Source of the DNA: Pseudomonadota bacterium
GTDB lineage: Bacteria > Pseudomonadota > Alphaproteobacteria > Micavibrionales > UBA2020
Assembly: GCA_021845905.1 (NCBI GenBank)
Contig: JAJZVA010000004.1
Span: forward strand, 62,001 to 126,000
Reading direction: 5' to 3'
Length of the DNA: 64,000 bases
Positions within the stretch are counted from its first letter, which is position 1, and each line of letters begins with the position of its first letter. Shown here piece by piece: positions 28,236 to 48,148 of the stretch. The notes below the pieces were generated by a model. That model worked only from the letters and a program-made list of their open reading frames with translations. It made no database searches and was not told the origin of the DNA. The position numbers and the translations under genes were made by a program.

Positions 28236-28264
28236 TTGACAAAAACACGAATCGCGCCTACAAC
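28236..28264 (+). promoter_or_regulatory. Predicted sigma-70 promoter of a small RNA
   Basis: A perfect TTGACA at 28236-28241 and TACAAC at 28259-28264 with optimal 17-bp spacing. No open reading frame with a ribosome site follows before the terminators at 28338 and 28383. Confidence 0.55.
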
Positions 28265-28270
28265 AAAGAC

Positions 28271-28383
28271 ACAGCAAATTCTTAGCAGCTGACAGACGCA
28301 CCGATGAAAACGCCCTAACCGGCGCAGGTGTCTTTTTTTCTTCAAAAGGAGCCCTTCCGTAACAGAAGCCGGCTCCTTTTTTT
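28271..28383 (+). ncRNA. Candidate small RNA, about 68-113 nt
   Basis: Downstream of the promoter the sequence folds into a weak hairpin (AGAC..ACC with GGTGTCT, bulged) ending in a seven-T run at about 28338, then a strong second terminator to 28383. The + strand has no gene in the preceding 5.5 kb, so the terminators need another source of transcription. No RNA family is recognised. It may be an sRNA or an unlinked leader; the evidence is only promoter plus terminators. Confidence 0.45.
28344..28383 (+). terminator. Strong intrinsic terminator
   Basis: Stem AAAAGGAGCC / GGCTCCTTTT with a loop of about 16 bases, followed by a run of seven T. It follows a weaker hairpin and T-run ending near 28338, so the two look like tandem terminators. 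Confidence 0.85.
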
Positions 28384-28396
28384 ATGTATTCGCAAA

Positions 28397-28411
28397 TTAA
28401 CGTTACGTTAA
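28397..28411. promoter_or_regulatory. CtrA-like binding site upstream of the EF-hand-like repeat protein
   Basis: TTAA at 28397-28400 and TTAA at 28408-28411 are separated by exactly 7 bp, matching the CtrA consensus TTAA-N7-TTAA and palindromic overall (centre CGTTACG). Two more TTAA copies follow within 25 bp. It lies 122 bp before the start codon. Confidence 0.6.
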
Positions 28412-28532
28412 TTATTTGGTTAAGATTCCTTAAATATATTTTTGAGATAATAAAGGTATGTCATTCCGCATCAGGAGAATCCGGATGCCGTGTCGGGATC
28501 GAAGAAGATGTCTTTAGAAAGGGACAAGCCCC

Positions 28533-29795
28533 ATGACCACCGTTTCAGGCGTATCCTCAACATCGACCACCTATTCAAATATCGTCACAGCCAACGCGAC
28601 GCTGAACCAGCTTCTCACCAATAGCAATTTCATCAACGGGCTTGCGTTGCAAACGGGAAACACGCCGGTTTCCGTGCCTGCCGTCACGTCGGCTCTCTGG
28701 AAGTTCGTCGATACCAGCGGCGCCGGCTCCATCACACTGGCCGACCTGCAGAACGCCATTCAGTCCGCGGGCGGGATTGCAAGCAATGCCTATGCGCTGT
28801 GGTCGCAAATCAACCCCAGCGGCACCTACAGCATGACATCCTTGCAGTTCATGGGCAGCACGTATCTGCAGACCGCCGTCAATAGCGGCATTTCGACCAT
28901 ACAGCAAAACGTGACCAACGCGCTGCTGACCAGCAGCACCAGCATCGCTGCGACAGCCAGCAAAACGGCGAAGATGTTGCTCACCGGCAACAACATGACG
29001 ACAATGCTCGCAATGCAGACCTCGCCCGGCACGCCTCCGGACGCGACACTGACCGCCTCGACGCTCTGGTCTGTGCTCAACCCCGGCAACGCCCCGACGA
29101 TCACGCTGTCGAACGTGCAGACCGCCGTCAAAAATGCCGGCGGAACGGTCAGCGACGCCTACGCGCTCTGGACGCAGATCAATCCCGGCGCCGCGCAGAC
29201 AATGACGGAACGGCAGTTCAATAACAGCCCCTACGTCAAAAACAGCATCAACGCCAACCTTGTCACGGTGCAAAAGAACGTGGCGAACATGCTCGCCCAA
29301 AACCCCTTCACCGCGGTGAAAACCGTGCAGATGCTCATGAACAGCACGACGGTGATACAGGCCCTCGCAACGCAAAGCACGCGCTGGACGCCGCCGAACG
29401 CCTCGCAGGTCTTCTCGACGCTCTGGGGCCTGTTCAACGTCAACAGCACGAAAGTCATCACGAAATCTGACGTGGAGGCAGGCGTCAACGCGGTCGGTGG
29501 CACGCCCAGCCAGGCGGATGCACTCTGGGCCAAGCTCGATCCCAACAACACAGGCTCCGTCGGCGCCATCCAGTTCGTCAACAACAGCTATCTCAACGAC
29601 GCCATTCAGGTCAACCTCGCCAAGACGCAGTCCAACGTGGCGAATGCACAGCTCATCAACAGCGGCACGAGCAATACCGTCCTCGATTCCTTCAGCAAAG
29701 GCGGAACGGACATCCTCTCCAATGCCGCGACGGGCTATGGCAGCAGCCCGATCGGGACAGGTAACAATACGAACTATCTCAATCTCTTCGTCTGA
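28533..29795 (+). CDS. Three-repeat protein with degenerate EF-hand-like loops, probably extracellular
   Basis: A 420-residue protein rich in Ser, Thr, Asn and Ala and free of Cys. Three units of about 120 residues begin near residues 55, 178 and 297 (LWKFVD, LWSVLN, LWGLFN). Each holds two loops of EF-hand spacing, for example DTSGAGSITLAD at 60-71 and DPNNTGSVGAIQ at 336-347, with AYALW or ADALW between them. Several calcium-ligand positions are lost, so metal binding is uncertain. There is no Sec signal peptide; composition suggests a protein exported by a flagellar or type I system. The CtrA-like site upstream is shared with flagellin. I cannot name a function. Confidence 0.8.
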   Translation: MTTVSGVSSTSTTYSNIVTANATLNQLLTNSNFINGLALQTGNTPVSVPAVTSALWKFVDTSGAGSITLADLQNAIQSAGGIASNAYALWSQINPSGTYSMTSLQFMGSTYLQTAVNSGISTIQQNVTNALLTSSTSIAATASKTAKMLLTGNNMTTMLAMQTSPGTPPDATLTASTLWSVLNPGNAPTITLSNVQTAVKNAGGTVSDAYALWTQINPGAAQTMTERQFNNSPYVKNSINANLVTVQKNVANMLAQNPFTAVKTVQMLMNSTTVIQALATQSTRWTPPNASQVFSTLWGLFNVNSTKVITKSDVEAGVNAVGGTPSQADALWAKLDPNNTGSVGAIQFVNNSYLNDAIQVNLAKTQSNVANAQLINSGTSNTVLDSFSKGGTDILSNAATGYGSSPIGTGNNTNYLNLFV

Positions 29796-35648: not shown

Positions 35649-36422
35649 TTACGCCGCGCCAAGCGCCATAAACCCGGGATTGAGGAACTTTTGCGCTGTT
35701 TTACCATATAAAAACGGCTTGCCGTCGAGCATTGTCACTCGTCCGCCCGCGGCGCGCAAAATAGCCTCGCCCGCCGCCGTGTCCCATTCGCACGTCGGCC
35801 CGAGGCGCGGATAAAAATCCGCCTCGCCCGCGGCGATGCAACAAAACTTCACCGAACTGCCACGGCTGATCATTTTGGCCACTTTCCGGCCTTTGAGGAA
35901 TTGATCCAAAACGGCCGGATCGCCATGACGCTTGCTCGCCACGACGGTCAGCCCTTCCGCGGGCACGGGGCGCACGTTTATTTTCCTTTCGATGCCGTCG
36001 CCGTCGCGCATGAAAGCCTGTCCTTCGGCGCCGAAATAAAGCGTATCCGTCACGGGCGCGTAAATGACGCCCATGACCGGCGTGAAATCCCGCATAAGGG
36101 CGATATTGACGGTAAAATCGCCGCTGCCGGTGATGAACTCCTTGGTGCCGTCAAGTGGATCGACCAGCCAGAACGTACCGCCCGAAATATCGGGAATAAT
36201 TCCCGCCGCGACGGATTCTTCTCCCACCATCGGTATGCCTGGAAACAAATCTGCGAGCGCTTTTGAAATAATGTCCTCCGCCTCGCGGTCGGCGCGGGTG
36301 ACGGGCGATCCGTCGGCCTTGTCGATCACTTCCGTGCCTTCGCGGAAATAAACCATTTCCCGCGCGCCCGCAACCTGCGCGCAGGGGATCAGCGCGCGCG
36401 CCTGTCCCAGCAAATCCGTCAT
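35649..36422 (-). CDS. cysQ: 3'(2'),5'-bisphosphate nucleotidase
   Basis: A 257-residue Mg2+/Li+-sensitive phosphatase of the inositol monophosphatase fold. Metal motifs are VGEESVAAG near residue 75, WLVDPLDGTKEFI near 93-105, and the C-terminal CEWDTAAGEA near 217. It converts PAP to AMP, removing the by-product of sulfotransferases and PAPS reductase. The start overlaps the TPR glycosyltransferase stop by four bases (ATGA), so translation is coupled; the 20-codon longer frame is ignored. It lies 62 bp before cysD. Confidence 0.93.
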   Translation of the reverse strand: MTDLLGQARALIPCAQVAGAREMVYFREGTEVIDKADGSPVTRADREAEDIISKALADLFPGIPMVGEESVAAGIIPDISGGTFWLVDPLDGTKEFITGSGDFTVNIALMRDFTPVMGVIYAPVTDTLYFGAEGQAFMRDGDGIERKINVRPVPAEGLTVVASKRHGDPAVLDQFLKGRKVAKMISRGSSVKFCCIAAGEADFYPRLGPTCEWDTAAGEAILRAAGGRVTMLDGKPFLYGKTAQKFLNPGFMALGAA

Positions 36423-38539
36423 GTCTCGGTTTCTCCCACCTTGAAGGCGCGCGGCGGCGCGCCCTTCTGCCAGATATTCCACATGGTTTCATATGCGTTT
36501 TCAAGATTGCCGACGAGCCGCTTGATATCGAACAGCGGCGTCGTCAGGCGGTTTTTTTCCAGCTTTTCGCGCAAGGCCGCGAGGCGCAGGGGATCTTGCA
36601 CCAGTTGCAAGGCCAGTGCCTCATATTCCTTGATATCCGTCGTTATCAGCTCCGGCAGACCGATGGACGTCAAAAGGCTTCCTGCCACGCGGCCCGCAAA
36701 AGTTTTCCCCGCGCAGGTCAGGACAGGCAAGCCCGCCCAGAGCGCGTCACTCGTCGTTGTATGGGCGTTGACCGGCAGCGTGTCGAGAAAAAGGTCGGCG
36801 CAACGGTGCCGCGCCAGGTGCTCGGGCAGCTGCTTTCTGGGCGCGAACACCAGCCGCGCGGGGTCGATGCCGCGGTTTTGCGCTTCGCGGCGCAAATTTT
36901 CCTTCACGCCGAGGTTGGCCTCCAGCAGCCACAAAACGCTGCCCGGCACGGCCTTCAGCAGGCGCGCCCAGATATCGAAGAAGAGCGGCGTTATCTTGTA
37001 AGTGTTGTTGAAGCAGCAGAATACGAAACCTTCTTCCGGCAGGCCGCAGTCGGCGCGCGCGGGCGTCGGCGCGATCGTCCGCGTGGTATCGTTGGGCTGA
37101 TAGCAATCCGGCAGCTGGACGATCTTTTCGCTGAAGAACGCCTGCTGGCCGAACGGCAGGACGAACGGGTCGCCGACGATATAATCGATGAAATCGCCAC
37201 CCATGGTCCCGGGATATCCAAGATAATTGACCTGCACCGGCGCCGGCCGGCGCGCGGGAATGCCGACGCGCCCGCCGGTCGTATAGCCCTTGATGTCGAT
37301 CAGGATGTCGACGCCGTCATCGTATATTTTTTGCGCCGCCTGATCATCTGTCATCAGGCGCATATCGATGAAACGGTCGAACCCCTTGAGCAGGCGGTCG
37401 CGCATGGCGCCTTTGTCTTCCCGCCCGTAGGAGTAGGCCGCCACCTCGAAGCGCGACCTGTCGTGCCGCTCGAAAAGCTCGGCCATCAGGAATGTGGTCG
37501 CATGCGGATAAAAATCGGCGGAAAGATAGCCAAGGCGAATTTTGCCTTGCGCGCGGGGCGGCCGGTGGCTGAAAACCCGCGCCGGGTGCGCTTCCTCACG
37601 GCCGCGCAGATAAGACTGCGTGCAGGCCAGCCGTTCGGCCGAAGACGACGGCAGACCGAGAAAACTGAAAGGCGGAATATTGACCGCGCCCTGGCGCGCC
37701 ATGTCGAGCAGCTCTTCCTCCTGCGCGGCAAGCCCGTCCCAGTCGCAGATATGCTGGCGCGCGTGGACGAGGCTGCTCAGCGCGTTGTCATTATGCGGCC
37801 TGATGGCGAGCGCCTGCGCGTAATATTCCGCGGCTTTCTCGGGCTGCCCCTGCCGCTTGTACGTCTCGCCAAGATTAATATATGCGTCGAAAAAATCCGG
37901 CTTGAGCAGAATGGCCCGCGCATACTGGGCCATCGCGTCGGCGTACTGGCCTTCATCCAGCAAAGTATTGGCGAGGTTGAAGCGCGCCATGGCGTAATCC
38001 GGCTTGAAAATGACGGCCTTCATGTAGAGAACCTTGGCCTCTTCGCGCCTGTTGAGCTTTTTAAGGACGACGCCGAGGTCGCTGTATGCTTCGGCGCAAT
38101 CCGGCTTGATTTCAATGACGCGCTCCAGCGCCGCAACCGCCTTGTCCCATTGCTTCTGGCTCATGTACAGCGCGCCAAGACTACTGTGTGCGGAGATGTT
38201 TTCCGGCTCGAGCGCGATGACGCGGCGGTATTCCTCCTCCGCCGCCGAAGTTTCCCCCCGTTTCTGGAACGCGAGCGCAAGGTGATAATGAAACGGCGGA
38301 AAATCTTTTTTGAGCCTGATCGCTTCCCTGAAAAATCCGATCGCCTCGTCGTAACGCTCCTCTTTCGCGGCCAGAACGCCGAGGACGTGGAACGCGTCGG
38401 GATTGTCCGGCTCTGTCTTTAGAACCTGACGGCAGATCTTTTCCGCTTCTGGCCCCTTACCGGTTTCGCAGTAAACCACGGCAAGCTTGAGCATCTGGGA
38501 AATCACGCCAGACGTTTGCGGAGAATTTGTTTTTGCCAT
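36419..38539 (-). CDS. TPR protein with SPINDLY/OGT-type glycosyltransferase domain
   Basis: A 706-residue protein. Residues about 10-265 contain seven or more TPR units (each with spacing like AFHVLGVLAAKEERYDEAIGF). From about 330 the GT41 catalytic region follows: KIRLGYLSADFYPHATTFL, DILIDIKGYTTGGRVGI, and VNYLGYPGTMGG with the motif that binds the UDP-sugar phosphate, then LFLDTLPVNAHTTTSDALW. Eukaryotic OGT adds GlcNAc to Ser/Thr; bacterial relatives act on cell-surface or flagellar proteins. The gene ends 4 bp into cysQ and starts 135 bp from the flagellin stop. Flagellin as substrate is inference from position. Confidence 0.9.
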   Translation of the reverse strand: MAKTNSPQTSGVISQMLKLAVVYCETGKGPEAEKICRQVLKTEPDNPDAFHVLGVLAAKEERYDEAIGFFREAIRLKKDFPPFHYHLALAFQKRGETSAAEEEYRRVIALEPENISAHSSLGALYMSQKQWDKAVAALERVIEIKPDCAEAYSDLGVVLKKLNRREEAKVLYMKAVIFKPDYAMARFNLANTLLDEGQYADAMAQYARAILLKPDFFDAYINLGETYKRQGQPEKAAEYYAQALAIRPHNDNALSSLVHARQHICDWDGLAAQEEELLDMARQGAVNIPPFSFLGLPSSSAERLACTQSYLRGREEAHPARVFSHRPPRAQGKIRLGYLSADFYPHATTFLMAELFERHDRSRFEVAAYSYGREDKGAMRDRLLKGFDRFIDMRLMTDDQAAQKIYDDGVDILIDIKGYTTGGRVGIPARRPAPVQVNYLGYPGTMGGDFIDYIVGDPFVLPFGQQAFFSEKIVQLPDCYQPNDTTRTIAPTPARADCGLPEEGFVFCCFNNTYKITPLFFDIWARLLKAVPGSVLWLLEANLGVKENLRREAQNRGIDPARLVFAPRKQLPEHLARHRCADLFLDTLPVNAHTTTSDALWAGLPVLTCAGKTFAGRVAGSLLTSIGLPELITTDIKEYEALALQLVQDPLRLAALREKLEKNRLTTPLFDIKRLVGNLENAYETMWNIWQKGAPPRAFKVGETET

Positions 38540-38674: not shown

Positions 38675-39928
38675 TTAAGCAAACAGACGGAGCACCGATT
38701 GGTTGGCCTGCGAAGACAGCGACAGGGCTTCGATACCAAGCTGCTGCTGTGTTTGCAGAGCCAGCATGTTGGCGCCTTCCTGGTTCTTGTCGGCGATCAC
38801 CAGCTGCGAAGCACCGTTTTGCAGCGTGTTGATGATGTTGGTCGTGAAGTCCTGACGGTTCTGGATCAGGGACAGGCTGTTGGCAAAGCCGGTCGCCTTG
38901 GTCTGCAACGTCGTCAGGGCCGCGTTGATCTGGGTGATGCTGGTCTGAATATCAGTTGCCGTCGCCCAGGAGTTATGTGCGGTGGTATCCAGACCGAGAC
39001 CCGTGGCCGTCAGGTCGACGTTATTGACAACGATCGGGTTGGTGCTGGATTCGTTGACCTGCACCGTCAGATTGTTGCCTTTTCCGTCGATCAGGTTGTT
39101 GCCCTGATAGTTCGAGTCGGTGACCATCTGGTTGATCTGCGCGATCACGTTGGCATAAGACGTAACGTCGGCCGCGTCGCTGCCGCCCGTCGTGACTTGG
39201 ACGGAACTTGCGTTCAGGCCGAGCTCGCCCAGGATCTTGGTCGTGCCGCCCGAACCGGAAGCAGCCGTCACCGTAATGGTATTTCCGTCACTGGACGTGA
39301 TGTTGAGGTAAGCGTCGCCGACCAGCATCGTACCGCCGCTCGGGCTGCCGTTCGTGACCGCCGAAGACGATTGGGTCGTACCGTCTCCATAGAGGATACT
39401 GGCGTTGAAACCCGTCACGCTGTTGATCGCGTCGACCAACTGTTGTAGGTTTTCGCCGGTCGCGATGGTGAAGGTCACGGCCTGGTTGGAGCCGTCCTTC
39501 AGGGTGATGCTGTCGCCGCCGGTCACGCCCGCGGTATTGCAGGTCAGGTCCGCGACGGTTGCGGACGACATGCCGGAAGCGCCGGCCGTTTCCAGCGTAT
39601 TGACGGTCGTGGTGTTATGCAGGTCGGAAGTGGCGGTGTTGGCGATAGACGTCAGCTGGTGCACGAGAGACGTGATGCTCGTGATGCCCTGGTTGGTCGC
39701 TTGCAGTGTCTGAATAGCCTGACCCATACCGTCGAGAAGCGAGGAAAGAGCCGAAGCGCGGTTATTCAGGGCTTGCGAAGCAAAGTAGTTGACCGGATTG
39801 TCGAGTGCGGAGTTGACTTTATTACCGGTAGAAAGGGCAAGTTGCGTGGTGCTCAACTCGTTTGCAGTGTTCTGCAAGCTGAGAAGGTTGGCACGCATTG
39901 CCGCAGTGAGGGTGATTGTACCTGACAT
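38675..39928 (-). CDS. Flagellin
   Basis: A 417-residue flagellin. The N-terminal D0/D1 helix region (LLSLQNTANELSTTQLALSTGNKVNSALDNPVNY has the LSTG-x-xxNSA pattern) and the C-terminal helix (ALSLSSQANQSVLRLF) match the family, while the centre is a Ser/Thr/Gly-rich variable domain. The start at 39928 follows an AAGGAA site; 18 upstream codons are ignored. It carries one Cys in the centre (LTCNTAG), unusual for flagellins. A CtrA-like palindrome lies 79 bp upstream. Downstream sits a SPINDLY-type glycosyltransferase and upstream, divergent, a GT2-like gene. Confidence 0.93.
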   Translation of the reverse strand: MSGTITLTAAMRANLLSLQNTANELSTTQLALSTGNKVNSALDNPVNYFASQALNNRASALSSLLDGMGQAIQTLQATNQGITSITSLVHQLTSIANTATSDLHNTTTVNTLETAGASGMSSATVADLTCNTAGVTGGDSITLKDGSNQAVTFTIATGENLQQLVDAINSVTGFNASILYGDGTTQSSSAVTNGSPSGGTMLVGDAYLNITSSDGNTITVTAASGSGGTTKILGELGLNASSVQVTTGGSDAADVTSYANVIAQINQMVTDSNYQGNNLIDGKGNNLTVQVNESSTNPIVVNNVDLTATGLGLDTTAHNSWATATDIQTSITQINAALTTLQTKATGFANSLSLIQNRQDFTTNIINTLQNGASQLVIADKNQEGANMLALQTQQQLGIEALSLSSQANQSVLRLFA

Positions 39929-40006
39929 GAGATGTTCCTTTTCTAAGGTTAGCAATAAGACCGGAAATCCTATTCCAGTCATACTCTCATCCTATCATCA
40001 CGCCGG

Positions 40007-40021
40007 TTAATGGAGGGTTAA
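40007..40021. promoter_or_regulatory. CtrA-like binding site upstream of flagellin
   Basis: TTAA at 40007-40010 and TTAA at 40018-40021 with exactly 7 bp between. On the minus strand it reads TTAACCCTCCATTAAC, matching TTAA-N7-TTAAC. It lies 79-93 bp before the flagellin start. The rest of the 303-bp gap between flagellin and the GT2-like gene shows no further feature. Confidence 0.65.
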
Positions 40022-48086: not shown

Positions 48087-48148
48087 TTAAAGTCAGTTTA
48101 AGCGCGCCGGTTCCCACTATATATTTTCCGTGGCGTTTTGTCTATAAT
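48087..48148. promoter_or_regulatory. CtrA-like TTAA-N7-TTAA site and TATAAT box before mlaE
   Basis: TTAA at 48087-48090 and 48098-48101 with 7 bp between lies in the gap between the ABC exporter and mlaE. A perfect TATAAT at 48143-48148 is seen, with no clear -35 box; if used, transcription starts near 48155 and the mlaE start must be 48174. The half-site match may be coincidental in this AT-rich gap. Confidence 0.35.

Follow-up and report, generated by a model that had tools for sequence, protein, structure and literature searches.

An EF-hand-like repeat protein gene of a single genus has conserved CtrA-type sites and a candidate leader hairpin in common with flagellin

Introduction

What could a 420-residue repeat protein of unassigned function have to do with flagellin? 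The question arises from a 64,000-nt stretch of a contig of a member of the Micavibrionales (JAJZVA010000004.1, positions 62,001 to 126,000), here called the window, in which a first-pass annotation had noted exact TTAA-N7-TTAA palindromes (N7 sites) upstream of both genes and had placed the repeat protein in the motility or swarmer-cell programme. Both matches are indeed exact, one (box 1; TTAACGTTACGTTAA) at 28397–28411 on the plus strand upstream of the repeat-protein gene (28533–29795, +) and the other at 40007–40021 on the minus strand (TTAATGGAGGGTTAA; minus strand: TTAACCCTCCATTAA) upstream of flagellin, although only their half-sites are palindromic, neither whole 15-mer being a perfect palindrome. 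The matches are also not found at just these two genes, as had been claimed: a third exact one (48087–48101, no strand assigned) lies in the gap between an ABC transporter gene (−) and an MlaE permease gene (+). In G004 no exact N7 counterpart of this third site was found upstream of the ABC-transporter orthologue, and the site was therefore left out of the count.

The window has three matches where chance would give 0.22, and in 100 shuffles the number of three was never reached. In first-order Markov simulations a site arose with a chance of 3.8% in the AT-rich gap before the repeat-protein gene and of 0.6% in that before flagellin. On their own the sites at 28397 and 40007 are thus suggestive of CtrA control, and the case for CtrA sites is built instead on the spacing specificity seen genome-wide and on conservation across species.

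CtrA and its motif in the genome

The proposal had been made to depend on a ctrA gene in the genome and on a motif more frequent than background. The gene is present: it is 69% identical to a probe for CtrA of Caulobacter and scores 403 bits against the NCBIfam CtrA model (cut-off 350). An N8-spaced site is found 103 bp upstream of ctrA itself. The whole genome contains 64 exact N7 sites, compared with 24 N8-spaced sites and 30 occurrences of the reversed pattern. Outside predicted genes lie 62 of the 64 N7 sites versus 18 of the 24 N8 sites (Fisher p 0.005), and 54/64 versus 14/24 are no more than 350 bp ahead of a gene start, the genes around every N7 and N8 site having been called with a simple home-made codon-usage finder. 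N7 sites outnumber the reversed control in 17 of 18 genomes belonging to the same family and in 1 of 17 from other families of the order.

As a check, a genome scan for N7 sites upstream of flagellar genes had been suggested. The genes downstream of the sites include fliF, flagellin, two MCP (chemoreceptor) genes, a gene for a GGDEF protein and rsmH, together with a receiver whose best NCBIfam match, below its cut-off, is CpdR. N7 sites were found, too, ahead of genes encoding a secretin whose N-terminal domain is pilus-type (Tad-pilus-type), a TadE/G-like protein, a pilin-like protein that has a prepilin-type methylation motif and a large SdrD_B-like-repeat protein, and in addition ahead of many genes unrelated to motility and of a repeated element in several of its copies.

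Motif, spacing and intergenic placement, and the presence of flagellar, pilus and cell-cycle genes among the targets, are as in the CtrA regulons of Caulobacter and Hyphomonas; in H. neptunium, for example, 211 of 222 CtrA ChIP sites are intergenic, with the consensus TTAA-N7-TTAAC (PMC7200025). Unlike those systems, the lineage considered here is known to us from assembled contigs, and the putative target, the repeat protein, is restricted to one genus.

Two further observations may be added. Five N7 sites in G000 (C5:30044, C8:160375, C8:285566, C25:159672 and C25:181952) are near-identical and have similar flanks, forming the repeated element; downstream of four of them are small related genes, which by eye we take to be mobilisation genes. 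Another site (C11:52997 in G000) lies 13 bp upstream of a gene that from its sequence, again by eye, we presume to be mnmG-like. Since mnmG is often located near the replication origin, this may be a CtrA site near oriC.

The two promoters

The flagellin gene (38675–39928, −) is recognized by the Pfam models Flagellin_N and Flagellin_C, whereas the NCBIfam flagellin subfamily models match below cut-off. Its likely ATG (39928) is 79 bp from the site at 40007. In five species (the window's own, G004, G005, G007 and G002) an exact N7 site occurs at −89 to −94 from the ATG, and all 8 half-site columns are invariant, compared with 3 of 7 in the spacer and 48 of 125 elsewhere upstream (p 0.0007). 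A putative −10 sequence, GATAGG, is located at 39991–39996 (−), and its GATA is kept in the five species.

Upstream of the repeat-protein gene, box 1 is retained as an exact N7 site in four of six orthologues (own, G004, G005, G002); among the six orthologous upstream regions compared it is absent in G007 and G001. Within the four species the invariant columns amount to 8/8 in the half-sites, 2/7 in the spacer and 48/131 elsewhere upstream (p 0.0005). Alignment of the six regions revealed a second, degenerate CtrA-type box (box 2; 28419–28433, +; GTTAAGATTCCTTAA) at the putative −35 position, which reads TTAA-N6-TTAA in the window and TTTAC-N6-TTAA in G004, G005 and G002; a related box is found in 5 of the 6 orthologues, G001 being the weakest with a half-site only. 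It is followed after 12 nt by a putative −10 sequence, GATAAT (28446–28451, +), of which ATAAT is kept in five of the six, G001 having CAATAA.

The closest described layout is that of the pilA promoter of Caulobacter, where a lower-affinity CtrA site at −35 together with further upstream sites delays pilA expression (PMC11264516); there too, a weak −35 CtrA site is combined with stronger ones upstream. The likeness is not complete, however. In pilA it is the −35 site that is nearest to the consensus in sequence, whereas in the repeat-protein promoter the perfect box is the upstream one, and here only two boxes, 7 bp apart, were found.

Two other candidate signals were considered and rejected. 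The information content downstream of N7 sites is low, which does not fit a fixed −10 signal across all N7 promoters. The sequence TTAGAAARGGA occurs five times in the genome, two copies being those of the flagellin and repeat-protein genes; the other three also adjoin gene starts, one of them thioredoxin-like, for which reason the sequence was dropped as a shared special context and is regarded as probably an ordinary ribosome-binding one.

It should also be mentioned that a small-RNA-like unit, consisting of a promoter-like sequence (TTGACA...TACAA) and an intrinsic terminator, occupies positions 28237–28385 (+). The unit is conserved in G004, G005 and G002 and has no Rfam match: in Rfam the window matched only a tRNA, and a relative gave weak sRNA matches that were sub-threshold.

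A hairpin in both 5′-leaders

The leaders of flagellin and of the repeat protein have in common a hairpin with an apical AGNAU loop, found in the window at 28468–28488 (+; GCATCAGG-AGAAT-CCGGATGC) and at 39959–39980 (−; GACTGGAATAGGATTTCCGGTC), that is at −57 of the repeat-protein gene and at −43 of the flagellin gene. Such a hairpin is present in 9 of 10 flagellin leaders from the genus and one sister genus. The repeat-protein leaders carry it too, except that the G001 leader is weak and without a convincing hairpin; the apical loop differs between the two sets, AGAAU versus AGGAU or AGUAU. Among 293 other leaders of the own genome only three reach −7 kcal/mol, and their hairpins are at −94 to −116 rather than at −40 to −60.

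In an alignment of seven sequences 91% of the stem cells are paired and covariation scores 0.82, as against 65% and 0.32 in shuffled data; these statistics are partly post hoc because the hairpin anchor was picked by eye before testing. The covariation is lost when the partner is slid by one to three columns. A covariance model (R1) built from three flagellin leaders only (G001, G003, G008) matches repeat-protein leaders at the expected place in G002 (20.9 bits, E 0.001), G005 (17.1 bits) and G007 (12.5 bits), and misses that of G004 and that of the window itself, which has an A·G mismatch in the stem. When R1 was run on 425 kb of DNA, mostly from elsewhere, the repeat-protein leader of G005 again came first, the best unrelated match reaching 16.4 bits. 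In a genome search with R2 the training site (E 0.0026) was the only match with E below 0.6, and the six matches did not include the flagellin hairpin of the own genome.

Which regulator might read the hairpin? Most likely, as we infer, it is FlbT. The genome contains flbT (139 bits, cut-off 27), and FlbT binds flagellin leaders in Caulobacter (PMC3930126). A flbT gene together with a conserved structured flagellin leader is in line with FlbT control of flagellin mRNA in Caulobacter and Brucella; different from these organisms is that the second mRNA with the hairpin encodes a non-flagellin protein. One review gives no motif by which FlbT would recognize RNA and regards its mechanism as unresolved (PMC4347634), so that the leader hairpin offers a concrete candidate for its recognition element. 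CsrA was considered as an alternative reader and is not favoured: a loop GGA is present in only 5 of 9 flagellin hairpins and not in the AGUAU and AGAAU loops.

Outside the genus, flagellin leaders from three other families of the order (L101, L103 and L097 in G019, G018 and G021) have hairpins with apical AGUAU or AGUAC, and in G021 the flagellin gene is in addition preceded by an exact TTAA-N7-TTAA (−99).

The repeat protein

Six of 8 genomes in the genus have the repeat protein; it was found in none of 47 others. A nucleotide scan of public genomes yielded a single relative, a metagenome-assembled genome whose match equals that of G004. The orthologues of the protein have one to three repeats and conserved ends (MTTVSGVSST... 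and ...NYLNLFV), and all six are free of Cys; the protein is rich in Ser, Thr, Asn and Gln. In the window's protein, a structure model (pLDDT 77) predicts three helix-loop-helix pairs, which are EF-hand-like, between disordered ends. Structural matches of the model are mainly EF-hand proteins (best Z 8.6), for example the EF-hands of CRACR2a (Z 8.1, rmsd 2.3 over 72 residues), and the predicted helix-loop-helix pairs would be of the kind found in calmodulin, NCS-1, KChIP and troponin C. A Foldseek search with the model gave no match at E ≤ 0.001, and a sequence search of solved structures gave weak EF-hand matches only (best E 0.075).

This does not mean that the protein is a calcium sensor. 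In contrast to EF-hand calcium sensors it stays below the Pfam EF-hand cut-offs (EF-hand_6, 19 bits versus 25; EF-hand_7, 18.2 versus 30), and none of the parsed loops has Glu at position 12, which is instead Asp, Asn, Gln or Val. For these two reasons the protein is named EF-hand-like and calcium binding is not claimed. Neither a strongly hydrophobic N-terminal stretch nor an obvious signal peptide was found in it. The protein is probably exported, by a flagellar or a type I route.

A proposed explanation and its alternatives

We propose that the site at 28397 serves as the upstream one of two boxes in a CtrA-dependent promoter for a genus-specific, probably exported repeat protein with an EF-hand-like fold. 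CtrA~P would bind to the degenerate box 2, where a −35 sequence belongs, and would switch on transcription at the GATAAT −10, while level or timing would be tuned by the adjacent consensus box 1 on its upstream side. Flagellin, 12 kb away, would be a direct CtrA target via its single box in the −35 position. The AGNAU hairpins on both mRNAs would be read by the same regulator, most likely FlbT, with the result that flagellin and the repeat protein are made only once assembly has come to the stage of flagellar export; the repeat-protein gene would thus be part of the motility (swarmer-cell) programme. To this explanation as a whole, derived from comparison of sequences, we assign a probability of roughly 0.77. 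Its parts differ in strength: membership of the repeat-protein gene in the CtrA regulon is very likely, and membership in the flagellar branch of this regulon is probable.

The alternative that deserves most attention is that the gene is a direct CtrA target in the surface and adhesion arm of the regulon, among pili and secreted adhesins, rather than in that of the flagellum. Indeed, the Tad-pilus-type secretin, TadE/G-like, pilin-like and SdrD_B-like-repeat genes are all preceded by N7 sites, and a Cys-free protein rich in Ser, Thr, Asn and Gln and with no obvious signal peptide could also be a surface protein secreted by a type I route. The hairpin, however, is common specifically to flagellin and not to the other leaders examined in the genome, and we consider this alternative possible though doubtful. 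A good deal less probable is that CtrA represses the promoter. In Caulobacter the extra upstream CtrA sites lower and delay the expression of pilA, and some promoters are repressed by CtrA (PMC11264516, PMC6180460), but box 2, about 12 nt upstream of the putative −10, is in an activating position, and no conserved box overlaps the putative −10. Slightly less probable still is that the motif at 28397 is a coincidence of AT-rich DNA and that control of the gene lies with box 2 alone or with a different factor. The local chance of about 4% and the absence of box 1 in two of six orthologues would be in keeping with a coincidence, whereas the half-sites that are invariant in four species while the spacer varies, and a genome-wide enrichment specific to N7, speak against it.

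We therefore return to the two-box promoter and the common hairpin. With both control signals also present at flagellin, a CtrA-type DNA site and a matching mRNA hairpin, the repeat protein is very likely made in the swimming-cell programme. The first-pass annotation is thus largely supported as regards motility by the conserved CtrA-type sites, the ctrA gene and the hairpin; "swarmer-cell" is something that we still only infer, because many genes unrelated to motility are likewise preceded by N7 sites and we know of no cell-cycle study in this lineage. One member of the regulon and a candidate leader element are new here, and no new kind of system is claimed. The interest lies in a lineage-specific protein of unassigned function that two independent signals, in the DNA and in the mRNA, assign to a regulatory programme. 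More tentatively, and rather against the odds, the AGNAU hairpin, which is seen in four families of the order, may be an ancient flagellin-leader element recognized by FlbT, and the genus may have recruited a new exported protein with an EF-hand fold into flagellar assembly by means of a CtrA box and this hairpin.

The flagellin neighbourhood

A glycosyltransferase-like open reading frame diverges from the upstream gap of flagellin. Directly downstream of flagellin (36419–38539, −) lies a gene for a FlmG-like protein with TPR and GT41 glycosyltransferase domains, which resembles the flagellin glycosyltransferase FlmG as described in PMC7591256.
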